A stretch of 64,000 nt of DNA from Cymodocea nodosa (taxonomy: Eukaryota; Streptophyta; Magnoliopsida; Alismatales; Cymodoceaceae): contig CM072335.1 of assembly GCA_036874045.1 (NCBI GenBank), forward strand, positions 13,288,001 through 13,352,000, given 5' to 3'. The translations under genes and the position numbers were made by a program. The notes under the pieces are model-generated. The model was not told the origin of the DNA. It worked only from the letters and a program-made list of their open reading frames with translations, and did no database searches. Of the stretch, positions 8,368 through 64,000 are shown piece by piece. How positions within the stretch are numbered: the stretch's first letter is position 1; every line of letters begins with the position of its first letter.

Positions 8368-8370
8368 TTA

Positions 8371-8386
8371 GGGGCTGTTAGTGCAC
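8371..8386 (+). repeat. left terminal inverted repeat of the Harbinger element
   Basis: GGGGCTGTTAGTGCAC pairs with the right end, with two mismatches in 16. The core TTAGTGCA recurs just inside at 8472-8479 and 8520-8527, each after a CC(T)AT-GGGGTTT stretch. These are candidate subterminal transposase-binding repeats. Confidence 0.85.
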
Positions 8387-9104: not shown

Positions 9105-9900
9105 TGAACCGTAAATATATTGGTTCAAACGATAGATTATAAACTATTAATATTTATTAATATTGAAAACGGTTGAATCGATGATCTTTCGGTTCAACCG
9201 ATAATTTATGTTATATATATATATATATATTAATCGGTTGAGTAGAGGGCTTTGCATATTTGTAATTTTTTATGATATTTTTGAATTGGTTGAACCGAAC
9301 ATGTTCGGTTCAACCGATACTTTTTATATATATAAAGATATATATATATGTATAACATAAATTAGTATCGGTTGAACCGAACATGTTCGGTTCAACTGAT
9401 ACTTTTTATATATATAAATATATATATATACATATATAAGCATCGGTTGAACCGATAATGTTCGGTTCAACCGATACTTCTTATATATATAAATATATAT
9501 ATTTGTATTGGTTGAACCGAACATGTTCGGTTCAACCGATACTTTTTATATATATAAAGATATATATATACATATATATAAGCATCGGTTGAACTGATAA
9601 TGTTCGGTTCAACCGATACTTCTTATATATATAAATATATATATTTGTATCGGTTGAACCGAACATGTTCGGTTCAACCGATACTTTTTATATATATAAA
9701 GATATATATATACATATATATAAGCATCGGTTGAACCGATAATGTTCGGTTCAACCGATACTTCTTATATATATAAATATATATATTTGTATCGGTTGAA
9801 CCGAACATGTTCGGTTCAATCGATACTTTTTATATATATAAATATATATATATGTATATATATTTTTTCAATTGGTTGTTTAGGAAAACCGATACTTTAT
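9105..9900. repeat. array of CGGTTGAACCG palindromes with a 142-bp higher-order period
   Basis: Eight near-palindromic units of about 36 bp, each made of the arm TATCGGTTGAACCGAACA and its reverse complement, lie between about 9280 and 9830. AT-rich (TATATA)-type spacers of roughly 26-40 bp separate them. Two unit types alternate: a GAACATGTTC centre and a GATAATGTTC centre. Matching points recur at 9441/9583/9725 and 9505/9647/9789, all 142 bp apart. Looser copies of the half-site extend left to about 9105. Every unit could form a long hairpin or cruciform. The array lies downstream of the transposase gene inside the Harbinger element. Confidence 0.9.
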
Positions 9901-10241
9901 ATATATATAAATAAATATATATATATGTATATGTATTTTAAACTAAATTGTATTTAAAGATTAAAATAATAAGAATAATTTATAATCTATGGTTTGAACT
10001 AATAGATTTAAGATTTCAACCAAAATATATTATAAAACACTACCTAAAATTATGTAATTAATACATCAATCTGTAATTTTTTGAATTGAAAATGAAAATA
10101 ATATTAATGACTTGAAAAAGTATACATGCTCTAATTATTACAACATAAATTTAAAAAGTAGTCTAAAAGTACAAAGCATCCAAAGTTTTACGACATCAAT
10201 CTACACAATAGTCCAAAGATACAAAGCATTCTACTTATTAC
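9901..10241. other. non-coding AT-rich stretch, 3' side of transposase
   Basis: (TATA)n-rich sequence grading into the 3' untranslated part of the minus-strand transposase gene. Nothing else is recognised. Confidence 0.5.
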
Positions 10242-34254: not shown

Positions 34255-35431
34255 TGTAGGATCATTGTATCACAAGAGGGGAGGTGAATTGTGTCTTTAG
34301 TAATTAAAATTACCAGCAAATAAAACAAGAGCACAAAACACTTGTAAATAAAATTCTATTCTTTATAAACTTTAAAGACAGAATTTACACTATCTTTTCA
34401 GCTCAATTCCCTTCTTGATGGTTTTGATTCAGTAATGTCTGATATACAATTCAAATAGAAAATGAAGTCCTTATTCAAAACTAATTTTGAATTGTATAAA
34501 ACCTGATCTTTATGCACGTAGCTCCTTTCCTTCTTTTTGCTCAGCTTCTGTATCTCTTCTTCTCCAGTTGTCAAATTTCCAGACTTCTTGCGTTTGCAGC
34601 TCCTTTTCTAAAATTGCTTGGAATTTCGAACTTCTTCTGATGTTGGAGAATTTTTCTGGATATGAATATTCAAACTTAACTTTTCAATTAGGGATCTGAA
34701 TTGAATATTCAGACTTGGTTTTTGAGAGTTTGGATCCTAATTGTAATGTAGCTTGTACTCTCTATTAGTAATCAAACTCTATCTTCATATTTAGCATGTT
34801 CATCCACTTAATCCATAATCCACGTACTAATTTTTTATTTAATTCAAATTACTATCTTTTTGAATTTCCATTTTCTCCACTATCATTTTGAATTTCCACG
34901 ATCTCCACTCGTAGATTCACAGAAACTTTATCTTCCTGGAGACTTGTAGAATATCTTCTAAGTCTTCGTTTTAGTCGAACACTTATCCTTTAAGTCTTGT
35001 AAAAACTCGAACACTTATCTGTAACTCTTCAAGTTTTTGTACCTGCAAAACACGTGACTGAACTTAGAAAACTTATCTATATGTTAGTCATTTTATAAAT
35101 CTCGAACAGTTATCCAACTCTTCGATTTTCATTATTGAACGCACATGGAAAACACGTGACAACTTAAAACATTAAAAACACACTTGCAAATAACTTAACT
35201 ATATGAGTTTTTAACATAACTCTTCGACTAAATCGAAACGTTAACTATCTGAAAACTTTCACTATTCGAAAACTGTAACTATCTGAAAGTTAACTATTCG
35301 AAATTTTAAATGAAACTTTTCGATAACTTGTCACCATTTTATTAGTTGACTATTATACTTAGAAAATATTATTTAGACTTATTTATATAAACTTTAATAA
35401 AGAATTTATCATCAAAAAAAAGTTCCTAATA
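34255..35431 (-). repeat. LTR of family E, left copy
   Basis: TGTAGGATCA at the left end, CCTAATA at the right (CA changed to TA). It shares the CACAAGAGGGG/GTGAATTGTGT block with the B LTRs but is otherwise distinct. The U3 (34950-35340) is packed with AACTATTCGAAA-type motifs and has two AACACGTGAC G-box cores. Confidence 0.88.
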
Positions 35432-35758
35432 ATCTCCCCCTTTTTGATGATGTCAAAACCTAATAAGTCTAAATAATATATCTTCTCCCCCTTTTTGGCA
35501 TTATGAAAAAGTAAATAAAATGTGAGGAAGAAAAATTTGCTAAGTACATATCATTCAAAAAGATATTTTTAAACATACATAACTTTCATGGATAAGGATA
35601 AACTATTTAAATAAAAACTATTTTAAACATAAATTGTCAAAAACAAGTATATGATCATTAAATGCAATAAATAGTTTACATGATGCGAGTGCTTGACATA
35701 AGTAAGTTGTGATAACAAATTATAATAAATAAATCATGCAATACATAATTTGTATAAT
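35432..35758 (-). other. 3' non-coding part of E1 with polypurine tract
   Basis: On the minus strand it runs from the accessory ORF stop to ATCAAAAAGGGGGAGAT at the LTR edge, with a second purine run AAAAAGGGGGAGAAG near 35483-35498. Confidence 0.7.
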
Positions 35759-36650
35759 CACAAGCCTCTTTGTCTTCGAAAAATATTAATCAGAGTATTT
35801 GAAATTTGCCTTGAAATTTCTGTACTTACTCTATTGATCTGATCAATTATTGCTTCATCTAAATCAATTTGTGAAACTTGTGACGGTTGGTGTAAAAATT
35901 TAGTATTTATGTCTATATGTAAATCTGTATGTATACTTGGATTTGTATTTGTATGTATACTTGTATTTGTATCTGTATGTTGTTGTTGTTTTGAAAACTG
36001 TGTTGACTATTGCTGTTGTTCTTGTGACTGAGTTTGCCAATCCTATTGTTGTTGCTGCTGTCGAATTATAGGTGTATCTGCTTCTTAGTACTTTTAGAGT
36101 TCCTTTGCAGAGAAAGATCTTGATTTTAATCTTTTCTATGGCCAAGGTGTAATATCTGTTTGACTTACCACAATTCTCAAAATTGTATCACCATAAAATA
36201 ATTTACTCTGCAAGGTTAAGATATGAGAAACAAAAATATCATAACAGTTCACCTGTATATGGTTAATTAATGCATATGTAGCATAAAGACATCATTTGCC
36301 AACCTCTGCCAACCTGAAGCATGTAGTATTTTTGCAATAAAACGTGCTTGGCCATTTAAGTCATTTAGTAATCTCATTGGATTGTTGGTAGTCGGATCTT
36401 TGGCTAAACTTTTAATGTCTCATCCCAACTGATAAACCTATTTTCTTTCTGATAATTTAACTACTTCATTTTTCAGACCAAGTACTTGATAAAGTAATTC
36501 TAGAGTTAAATATATATCATAGTCTTATATATTGGAAACAAGAATACCTTCTTCCACTGTTAAGTTTAAGTAAAAACAACTTACAAGTTCTGGTATAACA
36601 AGATGGCCTGCCTATTGTAGAAATAGAGTCAACAAGCCTTGAAATGCAAA
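35759..36650 (-). pseudogene. accessory ORF of E1, C-terminal remnant
   Basis: It matches the E2 accessory ORF (38231-39130) with stops. Recognisable parts are FEFQGL-type sequence at the right end, the central LNGQARFIAKILHA region, a Gln-rich tract encoded by CAA/CAG repeats (about 36000-36060), a Tyr/Thr/Lys-rich simple repeat, and the C-terminus FRRQRGL before TGA at 35759-35761. At about 36650 it jumps straight to the primer-site region. Confidence 0.72.
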
Positions 36651-36690
36651 CTGTAGGTAATCTGACAATAATAAAAGCTCTGATACTAGT

Positions 36691-37935
36691 TGTAGGATCG
36701 TTGTATCACAAGAGGGGGGGTGAATTATGTCTTTAGTAATTAAATTACCAGCGGATAAAACAAGAGCACAAAACACTCGTAAATAAAATTCTATTCTTTA
36801 TAAACTTTAAAGACAGAATTTACAATATCTTTTCAGCTCAATTCCCTTCTTGACAATTTTGATACAGTAATGTCCAATAAACAATTCAAATAGAAAAATG
36901 AAGTCCTTATTTAAAACTAATTTCGAATTGTATAAAACCTGATCTTTATGCACACAGCTCATTTCCTTCTTTTTGCTTAGCTTCTATATCTCTTCTTCTC
37001 TAGTTGTTGAATTTCAAGACTTCTTACATTTGCAGCTCCTTTTTCTAAAATTGCTTGGAATTTCAAACTTCTTCTGATGTTGGAGAACTTTTCTGAATAT
37101 GAATATTCAAACTTAACTTTTCAGTTAGGGATCTGGATTAAATATTCAGACTTGGTTTTTGAGATTGGGATCCTCTTTTGTAATGTAGCTCGTACTCTCT
37201 ATTTGTAGTTGAACTATGTCTTCATGTTCAACATGTTCATCCACTTAATCCATAATACATAATCCATGTACTAATTTTTTCTTTAATCCAAATTACTATC
37301 TTTTTGAATTTTCACTTTCTCCACTATCATTTTGAATTTCCACGATCTCCACTCATAGATTCACCGAAACTTTATCTTCCTAGAGTCTTGTAGAATATCT
37401 TCTAACTCTTCGTTTTAGTCGAACAGTTATCCTTTAAGTCCTGTAAAAACTCGAACACTTATCTATAACTCTTTGAGTTTTTGCACTTGCAAAACATGTA
37501 ACTGAACATAGCAAACTTATCTATTTGTTAGTCATTTTATAAAACTCGAACAGTTATCTATCCATACATATAAAAACTCGAACAGTTATCTAACTATTTG
37601 ATTTTCATTACCAAACGTATATGGAAAACACGTGACAACTTAAAACATTAAAAACACATGTGCAGATAACTTAACTATACAAGTTTTTAACATAACTATT
37701 CGACAAAAATAAAACGTTAACTATCTGAAAGTTTAACTATCAAAAATCTAACTATTCGAAAACTTTAACTATTCAAAAACTTTAACTATACGAAAGTTAA
37801 CTATCCGAAATAAAAATGAAACTTTCCGATAACCTATTAACATTTAATTACGTGGCAATTATTCTTAAAGAATATTATTTAGACTTATTTAAAAACTTTA
37901 ATAAAACATATATCATCAAAACAAAATTCCTAACA
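36691..37935 (-). repeat. LTR of family E, right copy
   Basis: It starts TGTAGGATCG after the primer site of E1 and ends CCTAACA. The next bases, ATCTCCCCCTTTTTGATG, are again the PPT side of an internal region, so this LTR serves as 5' LTR for E1 and 3' LTR for E2. Confidence 0.9.
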
Positions 37936-38230
37936 ATCTCCCCCTTTTTGATGATGTCAAAACCTAATAAGTCAAATAATCTATCTTGTCCCCCTTTTTG
38001 GCATTATAAAAAAGTAAATAAAATGTAAGGAAGAAAACATTGCTAAGTATATATTAATCAAAAAGATATTTTCAAACATGCATAACTTTCGTGGATTAAG
38101 CATAAACTGTCAAAAACAATCACATGAGCATTAAGTGCAGTAAATAGTTTACATAATGCGATTTCTTTACATAAATAATTTTTGGTAACAAATTACAATA
38201 AATAAATCATGCAATACATAATTTGTATAG
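37936..38230 (-). other. 3' non-coding part of E2 with polypurine tract
   Basis: Same layout as 35432-35758: PPT at the LTR edge, a second purine run near 37985-38000, and no gene. Confidence 0.7.
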
Positions 38231-39798
38231 TCACAAGCCTCTTTGTCTTCGAAAAAGATTGATCAAAGTATTTGAAATTTGCCTTGCAATTTCTATACTT
38301 ACTCTGTTTATCTGATCAATTACTACTTGATCTAAATCATTTTGTGAAACTCTTGACGGTTGGTGTAAAAATTCAATATGTATGTCTATATTTAAATCTA
38401 TATGTATATCTGTATTTATACCTGTATTTGTATCTGTATGTTGCTATTGTTCTGAAAACTGTGTCGACTATTGTTGTTGCTGTTGTGACTGATTTTGCCA
38501 ATCCTGTTGTTGTTGTTGCTGTCGAATTACAGGTGTATCTGCATCTTGGTATTTTGTAGTTCCTTTGCAGAGAAAGATCTTGACTTTAATCATTTCTATG
38601 GCCAAGGTGTAATTTCTGTTTGACTTGCCACAATTCTCAAAAGTGTATCACCGTAAAATAATTTACTCTACAAGTTTAAGATATGAGAAATGAAAATATC
38701 ATACCAGTTCACTTGTATATGGTTAATTAATGCATATGTAGCATAAAGACAACATCTGCCAACTTCTGCACCATGACCAAACCTTTGAAAGAGTGAAGCA
38801 TGTAGTATTTTTGCAATAAAATGTGCTTGGCCATTTAAATCATTTAGTAATCTCATTCGATTGTTGGTAGTCGGATCTTTGGCTAAACTTTTAATGTCCC
38901 ATCCCAACTGATACACCTGTTTTTTTTCTGATAATTTAACTCATTCATTTTTCAAACCAAGTACTTGATAAAGTAAATCTAGAGTTAAATATATATCGTA
39001 ATCTTGTATATTGGAAATAGGAATACCTTCTTCAACTGTTAAGTTTGAGTAAAAACAACAAATAATTTTTGGTATAACTAGATGGCCTGGCTGTTGTGGA
39101 AGTAGAGTCAACAAGCCTTGAAATTCAAACATACTTTCCGACTATATGCTTGTAGTGTTTCTGGTTGTTCAGGAGGTTCTAAAGTTTTCTTAATTTCTTC
39201 TGTTAAAAACACCTGTGGTCTTGAAGGTCCTTCACCATGATGCCTACGTTGTAATAATGGAATATAGAGTTTTAAGCTCTCAACCTTTGCCATTTTTAGT
39301 TGATAAACCTTTTGTTCTTCACTTCGAAGGCCTATTTTTCAAATGGTAGTTTTTTATTCATCAATAAATTGTTGAATGTCGTCTAAAACAGTTGGGGGAA
39401 AATAATTTTGGAAATACAAAGACTCTAATTCCTTGTTGGCATTTTCTATCATTGGTCCCCCATTTCTTTCCATAATAAGTGATAGACTGTACCAATTTTT
39501 TAGGTACATGTCTAGAACTTGTAACAATTGCAAGGTTAGGTTGTAAAGTTCGTTTTCATAGTTGTAATGTGAAAAGTTCGATCTATTTTAGTCTAAACTA
39601 TGTTTCAACATAATTTCGGATAAATTTCCAATAGAAATTTTTCTCGTCTTGAACAGCTTTTCTAATTTCATGTAGTACTTCATTAGAAAAAGTATACCTT
39701 GTGTAGATGTCGTTGATTTCATTTTCTATCTTTTGAAGTTCCATCTCTCTTTTCTACACTTTTATCATTCTACCACGTCCTCATCCATGTCCTAACAT
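38231..39798 (-). pseudogene. accessory ORF of element E2
   Basis: ATG at 39798 opens MLGHG with a Gly/Arg-rich start like that of B2, followed by charged helices. Later parts are RPQVFLTEEIKKTLEPPEQP (39293-39108), FEFQGLLTLLPQQPGH with FYSNLTVEEGIPISN and YQVLGLKNE (39132-38941), and then LNGQAHFIAKILHASLFQRF, CLYATYALINHIQVNW (38916-38668). The end is Gln-rich and finishes FRRQRGL. Stops and frameshifts break it. The central part is clearly homologous to the Gypsy protein at 58943-59845. From memory it resembles the region called putative plant transposon protein in annotations; its function is unknown. Confidence 0.78.
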
Positions 39799-41736: not shown

Positions 41737-42452
41737 TTAAACATCAGATAACCTACAGATACCAAGTTCTAATCGTAATTTTGAAAAGGTATTCTCATCT
41801 AAGGGTTTTGTAAATAGATCTGCTAATTATTCTGTGATAGGAACAAAATTTAATACTATTTTTCCTTTTATAACATTATCTCTTAGAAAATGATGTCGAA
41901 CTTCTATATGTTTAGCTTGTGAATGTAAGATAGGATTTTTAGACAAACTTATTGCAGAACTACTATCACATAAAATCTTAGTTGGTTCATAGGTTAAATT
42001 AAAATCTTTTAAAGTTTATCTGATCCATAGGATTTGAGTACAGCAAAGTGTTATATTCAGCTTTAGTTGTAGATAATGCTACACAATTTTGCTTTTTGCT
42101 AAACCATGACACTAAAGAATTTCCTAATAATTGACATGTGCCACTAGTGCTTTTTCTTTCAAACTTACATCCTACGAAATCAGCATCACTATAACCTATT
42201 AAATTTAGAGAACTGTGTTTAAAGTAAAACAATCCAAAATTGATGGTTCCTAATAGATATTTAAAAATTCGTTTAACAGTAAGTAGGTGTGATTCTTTAG
42301 GATTAGATTGATATCTAGCATAAGTACACACACTAAACATAATATCTGGTTGGCTAGCTGCTAAATAAAGTAATGAACCAATCATACTTCTATATTGTTT
42401 TATATTTACAGTTTTTCCAAAGTCATCTTTATCCAACTTGGTGACACGCATT
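41737..42452 (-). pseudogene. pol: C-terminal pol (RT end and RNase H) of element E2
   Basis: The frame 42451-41999 has YRSMIGSLLYLAASQPDIMF, NLIGYSDADFVGCKFERKS and WFSKKQNCVALSTTKAEY. A frameshift follows, then the remainder to GICRLSDV at the stop at 41737. It is SIRE type. The 5' end is cut at about 42452, in front of TKLDKDDFGK, where sequence homologous to the post-pol spacer begins instead of RT. Confidence 0.83.
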
Positions 42453-44552
42453 ATGATTTCGACATGTGTACTTTAGGAAATAATAAAATATTCTTTAAAA
42501 TATAACTGTCAAGTACATTACACATAACTCTCTGAAATAATAGAAAATTTGGATACTTAAGAATTTCACAGCCTACAATTTACCGACAGTTCAGAAATGT
42601 ACTAAATTAACATTAATTCCCTGAAATTATACAGATTCTTTCATTAAAGCATATAACAGTGCAATTATAACATAATGGCTTAATTCTCATATGATAAGCT
42701 AAATATTATGCAATTAACCATCATTTAACCGTTAATATTATGCACTTTTTCATTCTAAACACTTCCCCCATACTTAAATTTTGCTAGTCCCTTAGCAAAC
42801 TAAGATCTAATTAATTGGTTTTTCTAAAGTGCTAGAATTAATTCTTCCTTTTGTTCTTCTTTTTAGCATAAGAACTTATATTATTATATAGATATTCTGT
42901 ATGTTTCAGTAATATATTTTAATATTGTTTTCTCCTCTTCAACCTACAAATATTCATAGAATATATGTAAATTACATACAAAATATATTAGCATCACATA
43001 AGTGTTAATTATATTATCATTTATTCTTCTTTTCATCATCTGTCATCCTGAATTTTCCAATAAGATTTCCAGAATAAATTTCAACAACATACGAATCAAA
43101 ACACAATCCAATTCAATATGATTAAGATAAGTAAAATAAAGAATTGTATCTCAAATAAACAACTTCAAAAGTCTATTCTAGATTCATATTTCAGCAATTT
43201 TAGATAACATAAAATATACTCGATTCAAAAGATATCTGTATTTCACAAAACACTTGTATCTTTTCAGAACAATATATGTATATTTGTACTTTAAAAGTTA
43301 ATTTGACAAGCTTGAATTATACAAGAGCTTTCTAGTGTACCCATGTATCGAGCTTTCAGTCAACAATCCCATATCTGATTAGGATCTTAGGTTGCCAGAT
43401 TTAAAGAGTCCTTTTTCAAGTCAACAATCCTTACATACCTATCTGCTCAAGTATAAAAGGCTCATGATCAAATAAGTCAATAAACTCTTAAAGTTTTTCT
43501 CTTTTTTTTTTTTTTTCTTTCTTTTCAACACAGCATATGTACGTATTTTATTAATACAGATGCAATAAAACACCAATCTCATATAGTCCTACTTCTATTA
43601 TTTACTGAAAATATGAATCTATATCAATAAGCTCATACTTTTTCTGTAGTTTAATAAGATCTACACATAAATCATTCTACAAGTTTAATCAGTCAAATTA
43701 AATGTATCTTTAATCATATGTGTTTCATTTAATCTAAAAATCAACATTTCAGCTCTTTTAGGACTTCAAATAATTTACTAAGTTTCGGTTAAGCATTCTA
43801 ATTTCATTTTAAAATCGTGAAATTGTTAAACTCATAAAATTCAACAACATAAGATACTATATCTAGATTTGTATAAATAGTAAATTCTATAGCATCTTAT
43901 ATAGCATTCTAAATATAACATTCAAGCAATTACAGTTCTTAAAAAATTTACAGTCTCAATTATCGGATAGCTATAGCAAGTTCATAAAAATTTTCAATTT
44001 CCACAAAACTTTGCAATGCCATTCTAATTCCTTTAATTAACAAACTTACTTAGCTGTTACTTTAATTACCTCCCCCCCATATCTATTTTTTTGCATTGTC
44101 CTCAATGTAAAAGATTTGACAATAAATACAGTAATTGTTAGTAGGCATGAATATTATTTCATTGACTTAGCATCTAACTCAACGAACTTAATTCGTTGAG
44201 TTAATGAATAACTCCACGAATTGAGTTTAAATCTAAATTCAGGATAAGTAATCAATTACATACCTTGTTTTGTTTATATCTCCTTCTATATATTCTGATT
44301 TTTGATTCTGAAAAACTTTTCATTCATAGATAAAAGCAGAATATATAACAAAATAACATTTAACAGATATTGATAAATCAATGTCTTGTGTGGAACCTAG
44401 GCTCCTATGCCTAGGTTCTCATAAGCAAGCTAGTTGGTTTCCCAGAATAGATACCAACAAACTGGATTGATATTTTGTTTGTTTGTTTTTTTTTCTAAAA
44501 ATAAATGCAAAATACACAACATTAAAAGCACAAAATTATAATTTAAGAATAT
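42453..44552 (-). other. second post-pol spacer fragment and downstream flank of the F-box gene
   Basis: 42453-42650 repeats 40436-40640, and 43260-43980 matches the post-pol spacer of B (4140-4800), so this is another Sirevirus spacer. It contains purine runs (minus strand) at 42762-42773 and 44069-44079. From about 44040 the sequence differs, with CATTGTCCTCAATGT, a TAACTCAACGAACTT motif pair (44174-44220) and a perfect inverted repeat GAACCTAGGC/GCCTAGGTTC (44393-44418). No coding region is seen. Confidence 0.55.
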
Positions 44553-46304
44553 TGTAGGATCGTATGGCTACACAAGAGGGGAGTGAATTGTGTATTTTTA
44601 ATATTTTCTGACATATAATTGAAACTTTAAAACTCAAAAATAAGTCGTGACATTGTTTTCATAAAATCATATTTATTCAAGGTTTCAATTACAATATACA
44701 ATTCAATTCTCCTCAGAAATTGTAGATGCAATTATATCTCGATACCATGTATCATCTAAACAATTTCATAACTACAAACAAAGAAAACTAATTTGTGGAA
44801 TTTAAAACATTTCTCCTTGTTTTAGATATTTCTTCTTCTTTTTCTTCTTCAGTAATTCTTCAGTGACGAATATCTTGTCTTTCTCTGCTTCACCGAATTT
44901 GCTTTCTTTTGATACTTTAAATCTTCAGCGACATATATAATACATTTTTCTACTTCACTGAATTTTCTTCCACTTGAGAGATTTTCCCTGAGAAGGTGTT
45001 TTTGATCCTTGAAAGAGATTTTTCTTTTGGTGTGCAGGGATAGTTTGATCCTTGAAAAGATTTTTTGTTTTGTGTGCAAGGATAGTTTGATCAACGAGAA
45101 TTCTATGCCTTTTATACTGTATCTTCATTACATGCATATCCTTCACGTTTAACCACTACCAATTTTTCACTTCTCCATGTCTTTTCTTTTTCCTTCATCG
45201 AAACACACACGTTCTAACCCACGTTTATATTTCAAATTTTCTTTAATCATCAGTCCTAGATCTCTAAAAAATTTCCTGCAAAATAAACTTTCTCGTCCAA
45301 AGAATTTTCCATTATGTGTAATACGAAGTCGTTACTTTAATGTTAACTAAACGAGTAACACAAGTATATATATATAACTTAACATTTCTAACTTAACAAG
45401 TTCCTCATGTGCCATTTCACGTGACAAGTACTGTAGCTAACTCAACAAACTAAGTCTGTGGTGTTATGCTAACTCAATGAACCAGCTTAACCTTTCTTTC
45501 GGAAGGTTAAACGATAACTCACTGGAAACAGTTTAAGTTTCAGATAGTTACGGTTTTAAGTCATGGAAATACTCTTTATAACATAAAACTAGTGAGACAC
45601 GTGTCAAGACCAGAAAACATGACTTAAGTTACCTTCCGGATAGTTACGACTGTAAGTCTCCGAAAAAGCTTTAACTCACCGATTCAGTAATAAATAAATG
45701 TTTTTATAATAAGAATTTTACCACGTGCAAAAAATAACAACTTAAGTTTATAACGCTAACCTAACGTGTTGCCTTAATGTTCAATATAGCAACTCAATGC
45801 ATTTAGTTATGTTAACTTAACGAGTTAAACATGTGCACCTCACGTGATACAATACAACATTCGTAACTTATAATTTCACCACGGGTATAACACTAACTTA
45901 ACGAGTTCGTCTCTTCTTTTACTCACTAACTTAACGAGTTATCACGTGACCTATTTTAACCTTTAAGCCTCTAACTTAACAAGTTCTCATGTGACCTCTA
46001 TACAAACAAAACTCTAACTTAACGAATTGTCTAAACGTGCACTGTTCATGATACAGAAGATATAACTTTAAAACATATCATGCTATTCAATAAAAACACA
46101 TGTTAACTTAACATTTAGTTAAATGAGAAATTAATGCAACGAAACGACTAGTTATTAATTTCAGATCCAATACAGACAAGTATTTATGCTAGTAAGCTTT
46201 TTCTGTATTAATTGATGATTTTAATTTCTTTTCACAAGCAATAGTAATTGAGCAAATATGATTATATTCATTCAGCACACATCATCAAAACAAAATACTC
46301 AACA
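44553..46304 (-). repeat. 3' LTR of element B2
   Basis: TGTAGGATCG to ACTCAACA, 1752 bp, followed by the PPT complement. TATA box TATAAAAGG (minus) at 45108-45116. Short frames inside (44849-45146) are LTR translation, not genes. Confidence 0.93.
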
Positions 46305-46805
46305 ATCTCCCCCTTTTTGATGATGACAAAACCATATTAAATCAATTATGAAATATGTTTAACTCAACAAAGTACCTTCGTTGGGTTAACTTTTAATTTA
46401 ACAAACTTGTTTGTTGACTTAAGTTCACTTAAGTTTATTTCTATTGTTTGTGTAAATTTTACCTCTCAGAAATAAAACTCTCAGATGTCAATAATTATAT
46501 AAGTATCAATTTTCTAATTATCATCTGTCGAATTACAATAACCATTTAAATAGCATCTCCTTTTATAATATATATATGCAATTAAGATCATAATCATCTT
46601 TTTATAATATTTCTGCCCCTTTTTGTCATTAATTAAAAAGATAATTATAGAGAATATATATATATATACGAGATATAATTACAACAACACTTTCTATAAA
46701 CAAGAATAATAATTGAACATTTTTACAGAAAAATGTATTATTCAATGAATCAAATAAGTAATACAAACATTACATTTTGTATTCAGAAACAAACAAAAAC
46801 AGTTA
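46305..46805 (-). other. 3' non-coding region and polypurine tract of B2
   Basis: On the minus strand the run ATCAAAAAGGGGGAGAT (46305-46321) abuts the LTR. A second, weaker purine run AAAAAGGGGCAGAAA lies near 46613-46627. No gene is seen. Confidence 0.75.
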
Positions 46806-49064
46806 TCAACCCCTCCTAAGTATATCACTTATAACATTATATATTTTATCTCCTAGATGCCTAATATCATTTCTGATGTCGTTAAGTAGTGCATCTAAGT
46901 CAAGAGGTAGCTGGGTTTGCTGTTCTGCTTGAACTGAATAACTTTGTTATTGTTGTATATGGTCTGTATAATTAGGTTGTTGTTGATGTTGTCGTTGAGG
47001 TTTATGCATGGCCTAGAATTTTTGCAAATCTTTAATACTAAATGCTCTCATGCCTTTAGTTTCAAAGGGCTAGTCGGATAAAGTCAATTGGCTTGCAAGG
47101 ATTCTACATACAGCATCACCATAAAATAACTTAGAACTCATATGCTGTAGTTGAGACATAAAAGCATCAAACCAATTTATTTCAATTCTATTTAGCTAGC
47201 CATAAGTTGCATATAAATAACTTCTGCTGACTTCCAAATTGTGTCCAACTTTCTGAAATAAATTTGCATGCAATATATTTGCAATAAACCTTGCCTCTAC
47301 ATTCAGATTTTCCATTAATCTCATTTCAGAATATACATCTAGAATTTTTGATAAAGACTGAATGCTCCGTTCTAGTTGTCTTATCATGTCAAATCTGTTT
47401 GTAACAACAACACCGTCATTCTTTAATACTAAAACTTTAAAAATTAACTCAGGAGACAACATAAACTCCTATTCATTTATTTGAGCTTTCAAAAAATTTC
47501 CATTTTTGACCAGATTGCTATAAAAAGCTGCAATAAGCTCTATGTATTGCTTTCATTTCGTTCCTACTGGCAAGAATTTAATGAGGCCTTGAAACTCAAA
47601 CAGATCTCTTATTTCCATCAAATTTCTGAACTTTATTGAACGAGCATGCAGAATTTGACATGTAATCAGATTATTGTATTTTTGCAATGCTTCTTCAGAT
47701 CTAAAATGAATTGTATTACCTTGAATTTGTAATATTGTACACAAAGAAGGTGATACCTGAAGCTGTGATTTAGAGTTTAATTCATCTTCAGGAACTTCTT
47801 CAAAATGAATGTCATGTTGTTCCTCTTCCAAAATATTATCTTGAAGCTGCTAAGTAAGCTTGATTCTTCAGCTTCAACAGTGTTAGAAACATTGTTAATA
47901 TACTCAACATTCATCTGTTCAGTCTCTATAGAATGTTCAGAGTTCAATTTTTCCACAAATTCTACAGCTAGTGTATCTATCTGTAATTGTTCATTTTGTT
48001 CAACAGATATTTCCATTGATTCATGCTGTGAATTCTCAGACTCTGCTTCTATAGATTCTGAAGATGACTAGTTAACTTTTAGCTCTTCTGGAGTCTTAAC
48101 ATTTTCAATATCTGCTACTCCAGACAATTCAGCCTATGAACTAGTTAATACCTCAACATTGTCAATTATATTTGCAATAACTTGTTCAATGTTAGGTGCC
48201 TGATGCTCTGATTTGTCAATTTCTACATCATCAGGATTTGTTCTAATAGAAAAACTTGAGCTTATATTTGACTTGTATTTCTTCTCAAGCTTTCTAGCAA
48301 GGGAAAATAAAGTCTCATTATCTTCATCAGTTTCAGTGTGTTCGAAAATGATGAGTTTATCAGATGCACAATACGGTACAATGTCTAAACATACATTGTC
48401 CTTTGGAAATAAATTTTCATCTGATTGTCCTTTTCCAATAGACTTTTTTTCTTTAGACATAATTTTTTTGATTTTTCTTCTTCTATAACATTTCTGTTTC
48501 TCCTCTTCAAGTATTGCTGTTTTCTTTTTAGATTGCTCTATAAAAGTTTTCTGCTTTAATTCTTCTAAGACACTTTATTGCAACGGCCTTTTGAAGACTG
48601 TCAACTTTTGTTTTGTCTACAGCAATATTTGATTCTACTTGTTTTGAATATAAAGGAGTAGGGATAGTTGATTCATGCTCTTCCTCAAATGCATGTAGTC
48701 TTGTACCGTTTATAGGAGTTTGAGGAGTTCTATTTGATGAACCTACATCTTTCTCCAAATATTTTGCATACTATTCCAAAAATGCAATCTCAGCACATTT
48801 TATTCTGTATTCTCTATCAAATTTACTTCGAATCCCCATGTATGTAATACTAGCATCAGTATTTTGGAGTTCTTGTCTAACTTCATTTAGTATACCTTCA
48901 GGAAAGAAATATTCACTATAAATTTCTACTAACCTTTTGTCTACTCAAAATATTTTCTTGAACCAAGTACGTGGAACTTCATCATTCTCTATTTCTTTTC
49001 CTTTTGCATCTCCTCTACTTTTGCCTTTTCCTCTGCCACGACCTTTGTAGAACTTGGAGACCAT
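46806..49064 (-). pseudogene. accessory ORF of element B2 (most complete Copia copy)
   Basis: ATG at 49064 (MVSKFYKG, then a Gly/Arg/Lys tract) and a stop at 46806 (end ISDILRRG) frame about 750 codons with several stops. Parts in order: charged N-terminal domain (MGIRSKFDREYR), Ser/Glu/Asp-rich linker (48460-47777), FRNLMEIRDLFEFQGLIKFL (47831-47553), VLVLKNDG, then LNVEARFIANILHANLFQKV and YLYATYG (47462-47196), and a His/Gln-rich tail. The C-terminal half matches the E2 and Gypsy proteins. It sits after pol, where Sireviruses carry an env-like ORF. No transmembrane segment was noticed, so an envelope role is not supported. Confidence 0.78.
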
Positions 49065-53551: not shown

Positions 53552-53751
53552 CTTACCTTAGATTTTTTAACCTATTTGATTTTAAACAGTCTAAAAACTT
53601 TAAAACAACTTGAGCCTTAAATCAAGAAAGTTAAACGTATGATTAGATATTAATTTCTGTTTAAAAACAAGGAAGGTAGAATAAGCAATGATATTAAATA
53701 AGTTAGTATCGATTTTATATCAAAGATTATTAACAATGCTCTGATACCACT

Positions 53752-55473
53752 TGTAGGATCGTATGGCTATACAAGAGAGGGGTGAATTGTGTATTTTTAA
53801 TATTTTCTGACATATAACTAAAACTTTAAAACTCAAAAACAAGTTGAGACATTGTTTTCATAAAATCATATTTATTCAAGGTTTCAATTACAATATACAA
53901 TTTAATTCTCCTCAGAAATTGTAGATGCAATTATATCTCGATACCATGTATCATCTAAACAATTTCATAACTACAAACAGAGAAAACTAATTTGCAGAAT
54001 TTAAAACATTTCTCCCTGTTTGAGATCTTTCTTCTTCTTCTTTTTCTTCTTCAGCAATTCTTCAGTGACGAATATCTTGTCTTTCTCTGCTTCACCGAAT
54101 TTGATTTCTTCTAATACTTCAAATCTTCAGCGACATATATAATACCTTTTTCTGCTTCACTAAATTTTCTTCCACTTGAGAGATTTTCCTCGAGAAGGTG
54201 TTTTTGATCCCTGAGAAAGATTTTTCTTTTGGTGTGTAGGGATAGTTTGATACTTGAAAAGATTTTTTGTTTTGTGTGCAAGGATAGTTTGATCAATGAG
54301 AATTCTATACCTTTTATACTGTATCTTCATTTCATGCATATCCTTTACGTTTAACCACTACTAGTTTTCCACTTCTCCATGTCTTTTCTTTTTCCTTCAT
54401 CAAAACACACACATTCTAACCCATGTTTATATTTCAAATTTTCTTTAATCATCAGTCCTAGATCTCTGAAAAATTTCCTGCAAAATAAACTTTCTCATCC
54501 AAAATCTTTCATTAAGCGTAATAAGAAGTCATTACTTTAATGTTAACTAAACAAGTAACACAAGTATATATATATATAACTTAACGTTTCTAACTTAACG
54601 AGTTCCTCATGTGTCATTTCACGTGACAAGTACTATAGCTAACTCAATGAACTAAGTCTGTGGTGTTATGCTAACTCAATGAACTAGCTTAACCTTTCTT
54701 TCAGAAGGTTAAACGATAATTCACCGAAAACAGTTTAAGTTTCGGATAGTTACAATTGTAAGTCATCGAAATACTCTTTATAACATAAAACTAGTGAGAC
54801 GCGTGTCAAGACCTGAAAACTTGACTTAAGTTACCTTTTAGATAGTTACGACTGTAAGTCTCCGAAAAAGCTTTAACTCATCGATTTAGTAATAAACAAA
54901 TGTTTTTATAATAAGAATTTTACCACGTGCAAAAAATAACAACTTAAGTTTATAACGCTAACCTAACGCATTGCCTTAATGTTCAATATAGCAACTCAAT
55001 GTGTTTAATTATGTTAACTTAACGAGTTAAACATGTGCACCTCACGTGATACAATACAACATTCGTAACTTATAATTTCACCACGTGTATAACACTAACT
55101 TAACGAGTTATCACGTGACCTATTTTAACCTTTAGGCCTCTAACTTAACGAGTTCTCATGTGACCTCTATACAAACAAAACTCTAACTTAACGAGTTGTC
55201 TAAACGTGCACTGTTCATGATACAGAAGTTATAACTTTAAAACATATCATGCTATTCAATAAAAACACACGTTAACTTAACGTTTAGTTAAATGAGAAAT
55301 TAATGCAACGAAATGACTAGTTATTAACTTCAGATCCAATACAAACAAGTGTTTATGCTAGTAAGTTTTTTCTGTATTAATTGATGATTTTAATTTCTTT
55401 TCACAAGCAATAGTAATTGAGCAAATATGATTATATTCATTCAGCACACATCATCAAAACAAAATACTCAACA
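53752..55473 (-). repeat. 5' LTR of element B2
   Basis: 1722 bp, TGTAGGATCG to ACTCAACA, next to the primer site ACTGATACCACT complement. TATA box (minus) at 54310-54318. Its U3 has the same TAACTTAACGAGTT motifs and CACGTG cores as other B LTRs. Confidence 0.93.
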
Positions 55474-56608
55474 AACATGATTGAAAAGTAGTAACAAATG
55501 GAATAAACGTGTTAGTCGAAGCAAACTTTTTAAGCATAATTCTTCTTGCTATTAATTCTATTTTAATGTAGTTTGTGTTCCTTCTTAATTTGTAAACTTG
55601 CAGTATGTTATCAATACTAAATACAAGTGTATTACCATTAATGAAATGAAATGCAGAAAGGGATCCTTTTCGATTCCAAGATAATGTAGCTGTTATTATT
55701 TCTACATCTATTTCAATATATTCTTCTTCCCACTTCCATTCATTTATGTCTTTCATAATCCATATTTGAAATTTCATCAATTCATCCCACCATCTTATTA
55801 GACATAAAGTAGTATCATCATATTCATTATACCACATCCCTATTTGAATTTTATCATATTCTGCAGATGGTGGTTTAGCTATTTCTCTCGGTATAGGCAA
55901 AATTTCTATATAGTCATTATCATAACTATCTATGCTTACTATGTATAAATCAGATTTAAATGTAATTGATATATCTATGACTAGATATATATATCCATCA
56001 AGTATGACATGTATGCTGTTAATTAATGATTTCTGTCCTAGATATATCATAGTGTTTTCAGTCCAAGATATATTCAGAAAATTATACACACTTAAGCATA
56101 AATCTTTATCCCAATTTCCAATAGGTCTCCAATAATATAATTTTTCAGGAATGGTCAAATTTTTATCAGAAAACATTAAAGATGACCCACAATTTTCAGT
56201 TGGTACTTCATATCTATTAGGCCTTCCTATATTTCATTCTTCTCTTGTGAGAGGATTTCTAATCAAAATATCATGTAACAGAATTGCATACCTTGGTTTG
56301 GTTCTGTATATAATTAATCCTTCATCCATCCCCATAATATGATCTATTCCTACTAATGTATTAGGTGGAATTCCAACAGTTTCTTCCATATTCAGATATT
56401 CATAGCTAATTGAACTACGATTAAATAACTTCCATAAAAATCCATCTCTAATCTTAGTCATTTTTGCAGCTTGTAGTCTATGAAAATATTTTTCTCTAAC
56501 ACAGTCTTTAATATCCTTTGATACACAACACAATCTACATAGATCTTTAGCTGACAAGTTACTCAGTACTTCCCTTAGTGCATTCAGCGGTAATTTTATA
56601 AATTCCAT
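55454..56608 (-). pseudogene. F-box protein gene, one premature stop, 3' end cut by B2
   Basis: ATG at 56608 gives an N-terminal F-box (LPLNALREVLSNLSAKDLCR, LCCVSKDIKDCV). A long C-terminal part has the pattern of an F-box-associated domain (YDKIQIGMWYNEYD, LCLIRWWDELMKFQIWIMKD, SWNRKGSLSAFHFING, ILQVYKLRR). A single in-frame TGA at 56234-56236 splits it; after it the same frame continues to 55480. B2 enters at 55474-55478; reading across the empty site the protein would end two codons later (FQSYS then TAA). With B2 present it ends a few codons inside the LTR at 55454. F-box proteins give substrate specificity to SCF ubiquitin ligases. No introns. About 376 codons, normal for this class. 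Confidence 0.8.
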
Positions 56609-56811
56609 TTGTTGATTCTGTATAACATAAACAAAAATTCAGTAAAGACAAAAATTAACATAACTACTTCACACCCTCGTGGAGATAGGTCATAACTCAA
56701 CAAATTAAATTCGTTGAGTTAAGGAATAACTCTACGATACTATTAACTATAAGTAAACTTACATTTTTTTTTTCTTACTATATTATACATAGTTACTTCA
56801 GTTATACTACT
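56609..56811. other. short spacer between Gypsy gag and F-box gene
   Basis: About 200 bp with a TAACTCAACAAATTAAATTC motif (56692-56738) very similar to 44174-44220 on the other side of the F-box gene. No gene is seen. Confidence 0.45.
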
Positions 56812-57804
56812 TCATTCAACTACTCTTCTAGAGGAGGTATCAATTTCATTAACAGTTCTATTGACAGGGTTAGGTATTACTTGTATTGGCAATCCTTCAA
56901 TAGGTCTAACTTCCATTGATTCCTTCTGTCTAAGTGGTATGTTTCTATTTTGATTTTGAATTGTAGCATTTCCAAATACAAGATCTAGACGATTGTTTAA
57001 TTGTTGGATTATCTTTTCTAATTTCTCTATTCTAGATCCTTGTTTAATTAATACTTCATAACTTATATTCTTGTCATTTATATTTTCTCCTCCCTAGAAA
57101 TTGTTATTTCTCTATTCTAGATTCTTGTTCAATTAATACTTCATAACTTATATTCTTCAGCCAAGTTTTCCCACTGTGTAGTTCTTTTTGCAAAGTTTTC
57201 TAAATATGCCCATGCTTCTTCGCTACATAATTTTAAAAATCCATTCTGACAAGTAGATTCTAATAAAGATTTTGTTGAAACAACTATGCCTTCATAAATT
57301 ATACCTATTAATTGTGCTTTACTCATTGCATGATGTGGACATTGAGTTAGTAAATCTTTAAATCTTTCAAAATATTTCCAGAATGATTCTCCCTGTTTTT
57401 GGCTACACATTAATATTTCTTTTTTCTTTTTAATCATCTGATGTGTTGGATAATATTTTTCTAGAAAAACAGAGCAAAATTCAGTCCATGCAGAAATTGA
57501 ATCAGGCGACAGAGTATATAACCATCTTTTAGTTGTGTCTTTTAAAGCAAAAGGGATATATCTAAGTTTAATAGCATTTATACTCATGTTTGACATTTTC
57601 ATCATTTGACAAACTTCGTTAAATTCTCTAAGGAAATAATAGGCATCCTCTCTTTCTAATCCATGAAAATGTGGCAATTAACTAATATAATTAGATTTCA
57701 GTTCAAACTTATCTCCCTCAAAGTTTGGCAATCATACATGAAGGTTCATCAACTAATTCAGGATACAAAATTTTCCTTCATGGTTTTTCTATTGGAGCAG
57801 CCAT
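56812..57804 (-). pseudogene. gag: Gypsy-type gag fragment
   Basis: The 178-residue open frame (57677-57141) has the retrotransposon gag core: PHFHGLEREDAYYFLREFNE, IKLRYIPFALKDTTKRWLYT, FLEKYYPTHQMIKKKKEI, SFWKYFERFKDLLTQCPHHA, LIGIIYEGI. It is the Athila/Tat type of plant Gypsy. Upstream (to ATG 57804) LYPELVDEPSCMIAKL and FELKSNYIS form the N-terminus with stops. Downstream a coiled-coil (GSRIEKLEKIIQQLNNRLDL) leads to a stop at 56812. An 85-bp tandem duplication (57024-57157) shifts the frame. Pol does not follow; the F-box gene does. Confidence 0.82.
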
Positions 57805-58942: not shown

Positions 58943-61133
58943 TTAGTCTCTTCTCCTAAGTTCATCTACTTCCTTCTGAAGTCTTTCTACTTGTTGCTCT
59001 AATTGGTTAATCCTTTCTACAGCTCCTGACATTCCTCTAGAAGGTTCAACAATCTCTACAGCAACATAATTTCTATACTCTTTCACTAAAATGGTTCTTG
59101 ATCTTATCCTTTTGGATGCCCATTTAGTGAAATTGATATAGTCCACCATTAGTAGTGGAATCAGATCTCCATAAAATAATTTCTTCTTTATTGTTCTCAG
59201 CTTAGAGATAAAAACTTTAGACCAATTTATTTGAATTCTATTCACAACTGCATATGTGGCCCATTTAACAAATTGACTCAGTTCTATATTGTGACCTTGT
59301 CGTTGGTAGACATTCTTAATCAAAATGTTAGCTATCATGCGTGCTTTACCATTTAATTGTTTTAATCTATTTAATAATGGTACACAAAAATTGATAGCCA
59401 AACAATCCTTTATGGTCTGTTCTGTCCACTCGACTATAGTTGTGTCTTCTAGAATTTTTAGTCCTTCATTTTTCAATCCTAGAATGTTGTGGAGAAGCTC
59501 TGGTGTTATCTGTACATCAACTTCCTCCACGTTGGAAATTAATCCTCCTTCTCCTTCTCTTAAGTTTGCATAAAAGTAGGGCACTAGATTTTCATATATT
59601 GCATGCCCTCTTTCTTGAGAAATATATCGCAGTAGACCTTGGAATTCAAATAAATCTTTAATTTCCTGTATTCCATCCCAATTTACTGGTCTAATGTATA
59701 TGATATCATAACCCCTGATCTCTTGGTATTTATTATGAGCTTCCTGACTCCAAAAGTGTACTTCATTTAGAATTATTGTTTCAGTCGGGTCAGAAATGTG
59801 AATTTGTTGCTCTAGAGGGGTTTGTTCTTGAACTTCCTCTTCCATATGCTGAACGTGAACTTGCTAAAAATGCTTTAAGGATTCCTGAATATTTGCTTTT
59901 GCTTCTGTTTATGGTGGTGAGCTGGTAGAACTCTCCACTCTATCTTGAATTCTTTCCATAAATTGCTGAAGAGTTTCTTGCTCTTTAGTGGAATCTGCAA
60001 AGTCATTTCTTTCCATATGGACTTGTTCAGCTTCTTGTTCAGTTTCTGTTCTTTCTTCTTCCTCCTGACTACCAATCTGCATTGTCACTGTTCTTTCTGA
60101 TTTTGTGGCAGATTGAGATGGAGTTACGGGCAAATCAACTTCTACCCTAATTTCTGTTTCTTCTTCTTGTACAGGCTGCAGACTAGTTTCAACTTGTTTT
60201 TCTTCTTCTCTTTGCTTTTGCTGCTGCTCTTGCTTCTCGTTAGAATCGAATAGTAGGTTTACAAAAATTGGCACTATAGGCCCTATTGATATTGGTACTT
60301 TAGATTTAATCTTCTCTTGATATTCAGACACTATCTCTTTTCCTTTCCTTCTTCTGATTAATTGTGTCTGGTCTTCCTCTTCTTCTAAGATTAAATCTAC
60401 AAACATAGGCTCTACACGCCTTTGAGCCATAGGTACTAGCTCTTCCTGTTTAACTTTTTTGATAATTGCTGGTCTCGAAGGACTAGCTTCAGCTCCTCTT
60501 GCAGTAGGTCTAGCAATAGCTTCTTGATGTTGTTCCACTTTGATTTTATATTGAGTTTTCAACTTTTCTATAGCCCTCTTTTTGTAAAGTGCATTGAACA
60601 CTAGGTGTGCTTTAGCCACTACCAAATCTTCTGATTCTCCTTGGTTTTTCCCAACTCGAACCAGTTCTTCAAATTTCCCTTAATTCTTCTTCATTTGAAG
60701 GCCCCATAACTACCACCCTTTCTAATGGTTTAGGAGGTGGAATTGAAGGTCCTGGCTGCTGTTCCTCAAGAACAGGTCTTTCAGCAGTCAATTCCTCTTG
60801 TTCTTCCTTTTCTTTCCTTTGTTGCTTCCGTCTAATTTCTCCTCTTGTACAACCAACAATGTTCCTTTTGAACCATAATCGGGACTTACGTTGGATTAGT
60901 TCTAGGGCAACTTCATTATTTGGCCTGATTTTTCTCTCTTTACTTACAACGATTTTTGTTGCTACTTTGATTCTAGTTTCCATTATTTGAGGGATTTGTA
61001 TACCCATATCTACTAACTCTTTCCTCCAATAAAAAAGGTCAGATTCTACCTTTTGTACCTCTTTTTCCCTCATCGTATTTCTGATTTTCTGCCTTGTGTG
61101 CCATTCCTCTGAATCATTTAGAAATTCTGACAT
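58943..61133 (-). pseudogene. accessory ORF of the Gypsy element (three open pieces)
   Basis: Piece 1 (61133-60669): charged N-terminus with GIQIPQIMETRIKVATKIVV and a basic/Glu-rich tail. Piece 2 (60625-59909, one frame away): MVVAKAHLVFNALYKKRAIE, then Glu/Gln-rich. Piece 3 (59845-58943, same frame as piece 2 after two stops, 300 residues): IKDLFEFQGLLRYISQERGH, PYFYANLREGEGGLISNVEE, LLHNILGLKNEGLKI, LNGKARMIANILIKNVYQRQ, WATYAVVNRIQINWSKVFIS, and a C-terminal coiled coil ending DELRRRD. One frameshift and two stops would give a single ORF of about 730 codons, the size of the B2 protein. Piece 3 is homologous to B2 47831-47196 and E2 39132-38668. Its function is unknown. Confidence 0.8.
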
Positions 61134-61823: not shown

Positions 61824-63146
61824 CTAATTAAAGCTCGAGTAGTCCTCTACTTTTACTTCTTCTATAATTCCAAAAGAACTTTTTAGTATTTTCAAAATGG
61901 GTCTAAGTCTTTGTCCATTTACTTTAAATATATTCTGATTTTTAAGATTTTCAATCTCAATAACTCCATAGGGATAAATATTTTGAACTATGTAAGGTCC
62001 TGCCCATCTAGATCTTAATTTTCCTAAATGGTTATGAAGTCTAGTCATGTAAAGATATACTTCTTGTCCTATTTCAAAGATTTTTAGAATAATTTTCCTG
62101 TCATGCCAGAACTTCATTTTTTCTTTTTCTTTTACAGTTTTTGAATAAGCTTCATTCCTAAATTCTTCTAATTCAATCTATTATATTTTCCTATTTTCAG
62201 CAGCTTGATTTAAATTAGTATTCAGAGTTTTTAATGCCCAATAAGCTTTATGTTCAATTTCAGTTGGTAAATGACAACTTTTTCCATATACTAGCCTAAA
62301 AGGTGGCATACCTAAGCTTGTCTTATAAGCAGTTCTATAAGCCCAAAGTGCATCTATCAATCTATTAGCCCAATCTATTCTAGTAGGATTTACTACTTTT
62401 TCTAAGATTAACTTAATTTGTTTGTTGGCACTTTCTACTTGTCCACTTGTTTGCGAATGATATGATGTTGCAATTTTGTGGTTCACTCCATATTTCTTCA
62501 TTAAGGCTTCAAAACTTCTATTACAGAAATGAGTTCCTCTATCACTAATAATAGCATTAGGTATTCCAAATCTGGCAATTATATTAGTTCTTATAAAATG
62601 TATTACCACTTTGTTGTCATTAGTTTTTGTAGGAATAGCTTCTATCCATTTATATACATAATCCACCCCCAACAATATATAATTAAATTGATTAAACATA
62701 GGAAATGGACCCATAAAATCTATTCCCCATACATCAAAGATTTCAACCTCAACAATAGGATTAAGAGGCATCATATTCCTCTTTGATATTCTTCCTATTT
62801 ATTGAAATTTTAAATAACTTAAGAAATATTTATGAGCATCTTTGAATAGTGTTGGCCAATAAAATCCACATTGTAGAATTTTTGCAGTAGTTTTCCCTGA
62901 ACCAAAATGCCCTCCACATGCTTGGTCATGATAGAAAAATAATATGCTCTGATAATCAGTTTCTGGAACACACTTCCTTAAAACCAGATCAGGACATTTC
63001 TTAAATAAGTATGGGTCTTCCCAATAGTAATATTTTACTCTTGAGAAAAATAATTTCTTATCCTGTCTATTCCAATCCTTAGGTGTTAAACCAGTAACTA
63101 AGTAATTAACTATGTTTGCATACCAAGGTATTGTTTTGATGGTCAT
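61824..63146 (-). pseudogene. pol: Gypsy integrase with degraded zinc-binding region
   Basis: The zinc-binding stretch (63146-62799) retains both His (YHDQACGGHFGSGKT) and FYWPTLFKDAHKY, but the usual two Cys are lost and a stop follows. The core (62774-62181) is open for 197 residues with the three catalytic residues: Asp in [10 protein letters not shown], Asp in [12 protein letters not shown], Glu in [13 protein letters not shown]. Then come [20 protein letters not shown] and [16 protein letters not shown]. The C-terminal piece (62117-61824) has FEIGQEVYLYMTRLHNHLGK, WAGPYIVQNIYPYGVIEI and KVNGQRLRPI. Integrase would insert the cDNA copy into chromosomes. Confidence 0.88.
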
Positions 63147-64000
63147 TAATTGTTCATCAAGAAAATTATCCTTAATTTCAATATTTGATTTTTGTATTTG
63201 TAATCTTGATAAATGATCTACTGCTACATTCTCACAACCTTTTTATCTTTAATTTCTAAATCAAATTCTTGTAATAATAATATCCATCAAATCAATCTAG
63301 GTTTAGTCCTTTTTTTTCTATTATGTGTTTTAAAGTTGAATGATTCGTGTATACTATTACTTTAGCTCTAATTAGATACGATCTAAACTTCTCTAAGGCA
63401 AACACAACAGCTAATAGTTCTTTTTCAGTAGTTGTATAATTAACTTGAGTATCATTTAAGGTTTTGCTTGCATAATGAATCACTCTAGGAGATTTTTCTA
63501 TCTTCTGTCCTAACACTACTCCTATAGCAAAATCAGATGCATCGCACATTAATTCAAATGGATGACTTCAATCAGGTGCTTGAATTATAGGAGTTGAAAT
63601 TAAGCTAGTTTTAAGTTTGAAAAATCCTTGCAATTTTTATCAAAGTTGAATGGGACATCTTTTAATAGATTAGTTAAAGGTCTAGCTATTTTGCTAAAGT
63701 CTTTAATAAATCTTCTATAAAAACCAGCATGTCCTAGAAATGATCTAATATCTTTCACTGATTTAGGTTCTGGTAAATTAGAAATTACTTCTATTTTAGC
63801 TTTATCTACTTCCACCCCTTTCTTTGAAACATGCCTTAAGCCTATTCCTTGCTTAACCATGAAGTGACATTTTTCCCAATTTAGAACCAGATTTTTTTCC
63901 ACACAACGTTTTAATATTTGGTCTAAATTGTTTAAACACACTTCATATGAAGTGCCATAAATAGTAAAATCATCTATAAATATTTTTAAAGAATCTTTAG
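63147..64000 (-). pseudogene. pol: Gypsy reverse transcriptase end and RNase H
   Basis: The minus strand from 64000 begins at the RT catalytic strand (IFIDDFTIYG), followed by LNLDQILKRCVEKNLVLNWE-type sequence, CHFMVKQGIGLRHVSKKGVE, IRSFLGHAGFYRRFIKDFSK and IARPLTNLLK (63941-63600). RNase H (63549-63292) has MCDASDFAIGVVLGQ, HYASKTLNDTQVNYTTTEKE, LLAVVFALEKFRSYL and VYTNHSTLKHI; its catalytic Asp in the usual YTDH is Asn here. Stops at about 63571 and 63289 break it. Confidence 0.87.

Follow-up and report, generated by a model that had tools for sequence, protein, structure and literature searches.

A PF20167-like accessory reading frame behind pol is common to Gypsy and Copia retrotransposons of Cymodocea nodosa

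An accessory open reading frame (ORF) that follows pol in sense orientation is common to a Gypsy family and to the Copia families B2 and E of Cymodocea nodosa, and we consider it probable, at roughly 0.7, that this shared gene moved by exchange between the two superfamilies. The window that we analysed is the whole stretch of 64,000 nucleotides from contig CM072335.1 (positions 13,288,001 to 13,352,000). Exchange is supported because the core of the ORF is homologous in elements whose pol genes belong to different superfamilies, and because each linkage is found again in other copies (Table 1). In the proposed sequence of events, the ORF would be a PF20167-like accessory gene carried in sense downstream of pol by Athila-like Gypsy and SIRE-like Copia elements. 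Its core domain would have been transferred once between the superfamilies, or have come to both from one common source, and B2 and E would then have inherited the core together with a Copia-specific N-terminal domain. The transfer may have occurred through template switching or recombination, with co-packaged RNAs or nested copies as the partners.

Table 1. Features of the Gypsy unit and of the Copia elements in the window
Feature	Position	Strand	Remark
Gypsy accessory ORF g3	58943..59845	minus	300-aa open frame without a stop
g2 and g1	59909..61133	minus	rich in Glu; upstream of g3, also present in other Gypsy copies
Gypsy pol part: RT, RNase H, integrase	61824..63998	minus	Pfam rve in 62181-62774; rest named by reading
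gag-like ORF (Retrotrans_gag)	57141..57677	minus	downstream of g3, same Gypsy unit
F-box protein ORF	55454..56638	minus	of g3's Gypsy unit; truncated by Copia B2 insertion at 55474
Gypsy continuation behind the F-box ORF, beyond the B2 insertion	42445..44547	minus	91.5% to the L028 region after the F-box ORF; repeat with Copia linker DNA, in L028 at 4593-8388
5' LTR of Copia B2	53751..55474	minus	PBS-like motif at 53738
Copia B2 accessory ORF, acidic N-terminal part, broken	47856..48770	minus	assigned by reading, against the open copies L013 and L017
Copia B2 accessory ORF core	47034..47849	minus	stops in the window copy; open in several fetched copies
3' LTR of Copia B2	44552..46305	minus	92.6% to 53751-55474
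Copia E RT end/RNase H	41830..42472	minus	precedes the E accessory ORF
Copia E2 accessory ORF, N-terminal pieces	39108..39753	minus	without the middle part found in other copies
Copia E2 accessory ORF core, broken	38551..39141	minus	tblastn
Copia E1 accessory ORF core	36100..36650	minus	second unit of the E 3'-end tandem duplication

The Gypsy ORF, g3, has a PF20167-like core at about residues 27-265 and ends in DELRRRD. With the low-complexity filter on, a tblastn search of the window with its 300 amino acids found the ORFs of Copia B2 (47804-47034, E 6.2e-41, 32% of 257 residues), E2 (39138-38551, E 1.6e-38, 38% of 199) and E1 (36650-36288 and 36285-36100, E 4.4e-27). The homologous span is about 230 residues long, and the best of 300 shuffled controls scored 30.4 bits against 147, 141, 74 and 62 bits for the real matches. 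The similarity that the initial annotation had reported between the Gypsy and Copia ORFs is therefore real and far above chance. The words it had listed in a common order are kept when 11 unbroken copies of four types from the same genome are aligned over the core of about 230 residues: QGL, FYxNL, LGLKN, LN, A--IA-IL, Q--GH, ATY and NW are invariant or at least 90% conserved, with invariant positions in FY..L, W, LN, A.IL, Q..GH, ATY and NW. A profile-profile comparison, which it had suggested, gave hhalign E-values of 3.1e-35 for Gypsy-B2, 8.3e-37 for Gypsy-E and 3.6e-44 for B2-E, from profiles of open copies with only three to four close sequences each. Similarity confined to low-complexity sequence, the outcome it had named as contradicting the claim, is excluded by the filtered search, the shuffles and the hhalign values. 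In the window self-comparison at E 1e-10 the Gypsy ORF and the Copia ORFs do not match as DNA, and their relation is therefore old.

The linkage of the ORF to each kind of pol was followed through the genome of 374.6 Mb in 28 contigs. Scored matches numbered at least 131 for g3 (of 12547 candidates, 81-100% identity), at least 150 for B2 (of 8994, 86-100%), at least 150 for E (of 9329, 86-100%) and at least 150 for a further type, X (of 10509, 71-100% among the matches listed). Integrase, g1, g2 and g3 stand in this order in five of the six Gypsy copies whose upstream side was fetched; on C10 only the end of the integrase precedes g1, and on C15 the integrase is interrupted by a nested insertion. 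The sixth copy, L031, has only the end of g2 and g3, without integrase and g1 upstream or the gag-like ORF downstream. A 3.66-kb B2 query that runs from the RNase H tail into the ORF core was matched over its full length in 29 of 40 scored places, counting the window. The E query, from RNase H into the ORF, was covered from base 1 or 2 to base 3166 in 15 of 40 places, again with the window among them, and the break at 3166 falls where the window copy lacks a portion of the ORF present in other copies. The Copia E segment from the RT end and RNase H to the ORF N-terminus is thus kept in other copies; at a distance of 1.18-1.23 kb beyond it, the E core follows in at least 10 other places of the 40 as well as in the window, 10 being a lower bound since the E cores compared were the best 150 matches. 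Because the linkage to the Gypsy and to the Copia pol each recurs in other copies, it is not a local accident of nesting.

All three Copia copies of the ORF in the window are broken. Two of them, E1 and E2, had been taken for separate copies and turn out to be the units of an 85% tandem duplication of one Copia 3' end (34255-36651 and 36691-39130); E1, given earlier in ascending coordinates (35759-36650), lies on the minus strand. Every copy had also been placed between pol and the 3' LTR. This is shown for B2, whose two LTRs are delimited; in the Gypsy family other sequence follows g3, as described below. Copia subfamily A does have nothing at this place, and its empty site is best read as a deletion of about 0.6 kb of LTR end together with the ORF, not as ancestral absence: the match of A to the B2 LTR stops at B2 45694, leaving the last 611 bases of the LTR unmatched, and the next match resumes at B2 48522, only 17 bases further on in A. 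We describe these Copia families as SIRE-like on partial criteria and a PBS-like motif. The features in question are RVT_2 in the sister copy A (the RT of B2 is deleted), LTRs of 1.72-1.75 kb, a sense ORF after pol, and the motif TGGTATCAGAGC at 53738 and 16156, which we take to be a tRNA-Met-type PBS motif. Elsewhere in the window, a tandem array at 9101-9939 repeats every 142 bp, with a sub-period of 65 bp.

Behind g3, the Gypsy unit continues with about 1 kb of sequence, the gag-like ORF, the F-box ORF and a repeat of several kb. Seven of the eight mapped units have the gag-like ORF after g3 (the window, C5, C7, C10, C15 and two in C19); in the remaining one, L031, the F-box ORF comes after g3 without a gag-like ORF between them. 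The 1-kb segment behind g3 has 40 scored places, and among the eight fetched loci all have g3 upstream, seven have the gag-like ORF downstream and none is a solo copy. We had considered that the Gypsy ORF directly abuts the 3' LTR and dropped this placement, because the segment never stands alone in these loci and the gag-like ORF lies downstream. A gag-like ORF thus sits behind both pol and the accessory ORF in this unit, and L032 shows a zinc-knuckle-like gag end (seen by eye, without a Pfam match) before the protease. The F-box ORF is present in the mapped Gypsy copies L026, L028, L030, L032, L033 and L035 and in L031, and in L032 (5632-6525, minus strand) it matches PF00646 with 38.7 bits. 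An F-box gene in a high-copy retrotransposon is unusual; a narrow literature query combining F-box with other terms returned no paper. The similarity of the repeat in L028 to L035 and to L031 ends at almost one point, L028 8388 and 8381, within 8 bases. One of 65 loci contains the PBS-like sequence GCGTCGTTGCCGGGGA, presumably an Athila-type PBS, behind the repeat (L032 3822-3837). The closest matches listed for the Gypsy integrase are mostly unnamed or plant polyproteins, with up to 75% identity, and none is labelled Athila. We call the family Athila-like on the basis of these partial tests and the PBS-like motif.

A second piece is common to the Gypsy and Copia elements, in this case at the DNA level. 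In all four Gypsy copies tested, the repeat behind the F-box ORF matches the post-pol linker of Copia A and B2 over 0.73-0.95 kb at 74-77% identity and the Copia LTR over 0.15-0.29 kb at 70-75%. An insertion interrupts the linker-like stretch on C7, and none of 50 shuffled linker sequences gave a match. Because this similarity is still visible in the DNA, the mosaic is probably younger than the relation between the ORFs. It supports the view that modules may be exchanged between these elements.

Within Copia, the ORFs of B2 and E also have an N-terminal domain in common (33% over 75 aa, E 4e-11); a comparison of the Gypsy frames g1 and g2 with Copia N-termini found nothing at E ≤1. In the core tree, which is unrooted and holds four lineages and 216 columns, B2 and E form a group with a support of 94; the AU test gives p 0.94 for this grouping, 0.039 for E with Gypsy and 0.085 for B2 with Gypsy, the last of which is not rejected. 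Core identities of chosen open pairs are 41-44% for B2-E, 37% for Gypsy-B2 and 37-39% for Gypsy-E, and with X they are 33% (Gypsy), 31% (E) and 26% (B2). Raw identities among the degraded window copies had led us to place the E ORF closest to the Gypsy ORF, a placement that we gave up once open copies had been put into a tree. The accessory ORF evolves faster than pol, because Copia RNase H is 69% identical between A and E (129 aa) and 77% between B2 and E (53 aa). Since B2 and E share the N-terminal domain and group in the tree, repeated capture within Copia appears unnecessary, and one event between superfamilies followed by vertical descent would suffice. The initial annotation had left the choice between exchange and repeated capture; exchange, or acquisition of a single source gene by both superfamilies, gains support, and only repeated capture within Copia is not needed. 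Type X is a fourth type of the same core, found in L034 (3171-4037) nested inside a Gypsy integrase. The sole upstream piece of an X-type copy, L066, has no pol match, and four X-type matches with an exact spacing of 1762 bp form a tandem array on C14 (G000 C14:8946311-8952211).

The suspicion that the ORF belongs with the "putative plant transposon protein" family was the right lead, as the Gypsy and B2 proteins match Pfam PF20167 (Transposase_32, Putative plant transposon protein), though always below the curated cut-off. For g3 the match has an E-value of 6.6e-8 and 33.1 bits against a cut-off of 45 and spans profile positions 13-167 of 177. B2-type proteins searched alone gave E 1.1e-4 and 2.6e-4 (21.4 and 22.5 bits, profile 16-143), the X-type protein of L034 gave E 8.6e-4 (19.7 bits, profile 17-150), and two frames of E-type protein gave no match. 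The gathering cut-off of 45 bits was reached neither by the window ORFs nor by the tested B2-, E- and X-type copies, and seven of the 11 aligned members match at E ≤0.1. Run against the whole genome, the PF20167 model found 14 places among 31 candidates, with a best score of 45 bits; in 14 control genomes it found none. Of these 14 places, 10 were fetched, and nine of them (L057-L065) hold diverged Gypsy-family copies. A protein of another type, in L056 (1023-2079, minus strand), is the only match that reaches the curated 45 bits, and an overlapping RVT_3 RNase H-like frame lies behind it. Outside the genome, g3 had no homologue in the protein collection at E 0.001. A search with the piece alignment recovered one 115-aa B2-like fragment, the sole outside plant homologue. 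Solved structures gave four matches, to cadherin, all at E 1.3 or worse, and a plasmid search gave none.

The principal alternative to exchange is independent capture, in which each superfamily took the domain at a different time from the same kind of host PF20167 gene. The unrooted core tree leaves room for such a history, and so do the 14 PF20167 matches in the genome, one of which is of another type and sits beside an RNase H-like frame. Still, we judge it unlikely, because nearly all of the fetched matches are Gypsy copies with no clear host gene among them, the orientation and the place behind pol are alike in both superfamilies, and a separate Gypsy-Copia DNA mosaic exists. The idea that the likeness arises by chance, from Glu/Gln-rich linkers of low complexity, or from a Gypsy fragment nested in Copia has in its favour that elements are densely nested in the window and that its three Copia copies are broken; we give it practically no weight, given the filtered core similarity, the 300 shuffles, the recurrence of the linkage in many places on many contigs, and the lack of the ORF DNA match at E 1e-10 that a recent nested fragment should produce. 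A wider reading goes beyond exchange of a single gene, and we offer it only as a speculation with the odds against it: the superfamilies might take their accessory modules from one shared pool, with the PF20167 protein acting in trans and an F-box partner turning over host silencing proteins. The modules listed for that pool in the Gypsy family are the PF20167 gene, the gag-like ORF, the F-box gene, and the Copia linker and LTR DNA.

What the protein does can be approached from its composition. Each ORF family is under coding constraint, with pooled dN/dS of 0.34 for g3, 0.33 for B2, 0.40 for E, 0.47 for the F-box ORF and 0.59 for the integrase, the last from only five copies, and the differences between these values should not be over-read. 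The Glu content is 16-21% in g1 and g2, 13% in a B2 N-terminus and 7-9% in E N-termini, and B2 copies have a Q-rich C-terminal end with Arg-rich last residues. An AlphaFold run on 11 sequences gave an unusable model with a mean pLDDT of 35; its only long stretch above pLDDT 50 is a helix at the end of g3. An envelope-like role in fusion or movement is suggested by the position after pol, by the use of the term env-like for SIRE and Athila ORFs in the literature (PMC7264820, PMC2829016), and by hydrophobic stretches of borderline hydropathy in three E-type N-termini (KD19 1.56, 1.68 and 1.36) and in g2 of the window (1.58, with 0.70 for g2 of L006). We nevertheless think this role improbable, and favour a soluble factor, because hydropathy shows no strong candidate for a transmembrane segment in the shared core or in the g3, B2 and X proteins (KD19 maxima of 0.78-1.33) and because the PF20167 ORF of a sunflower Athila element is predicted to be nuclear (PMC11728184). 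Our tentative suggestion is a soluble, oligomerising accessory protein, not Env, that would act in trans on the element ribonucleoprotein (RNP) or in the nucleus. A charged N-terminus, a compact core and a helix-prone or Q-rich C-terminus would make up such a protein, which may work inside the cell, for instance against silencing.

That SIRE and Athila elements carry sense ORFs behind pol is well established, and an Athila ORF with PF20167 has been described (PMC11728184). That ORF, the 3' ORF(+) Transposase_32 of sunflower Athila 14, is like the one described here in lying in sense after a Gypsy pol and in matching PF20167 in part; unlike it, it is described from a single superfamily as one frame of 487 aa with a predicted nuclear signal, and the accessible part of the article contains no mention of a Copia homologue. 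The eORF-3'F of SIRE elements or Sireviruses, termed "env-like", is likewise a sense ORF after a Copia pol, but the surveys, as far as their accessible text goes, count the eORFs of the two superfamilies apart (45 and 314 groups) with no shared group (PMC6317226, PMC2829016). Neumann et al. (PMC6317226) distinguished 19 SIRE groups with no or very little similarity at their threshold, and the presence of SIRE ORFs in many groups is read in that paper as fast evolution or independent acquisition. A parallel comes from bdelloid rotifers, where ORF3 types occur in LTR and Penelope-like elements, one ORF with unrelated polymerases, and are read as exchange or a common pool (PMC5408684); those ORFs are enzymatic, coiled-coil or transmembrane and belong to animals, whereas ours is a plant PF20167-like gene. 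The Transposase_28 (PF04195) ORFs of Retand elements are antisense and of a different Pfam family (PMC11963269). Our literature search, mostly of papers available without subscription and in part of their text, found no statement of an ORF shared by plant Copia and Gypsy elements. As far as that search reached, the sharing of a PF20167-like ORF between Copia and Gypsy elements of plants would be new, and PF20167 in Athila and ORF sharing in rotifers had already been published.

The same extra gene in two superfamilies suggests that these elements swap accessory genes, and its occurrence with both types of pol implies a function that is independent of pol type. Together with the DNA-level mosaic, it indicates that plant Copia and Gypsy elements can have sequence in common. 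By tying a SIRE-like ORF to the PF20167 family of Athila elements, the finding provides a testable origin for the extra ORFs of plant retrotransposons.
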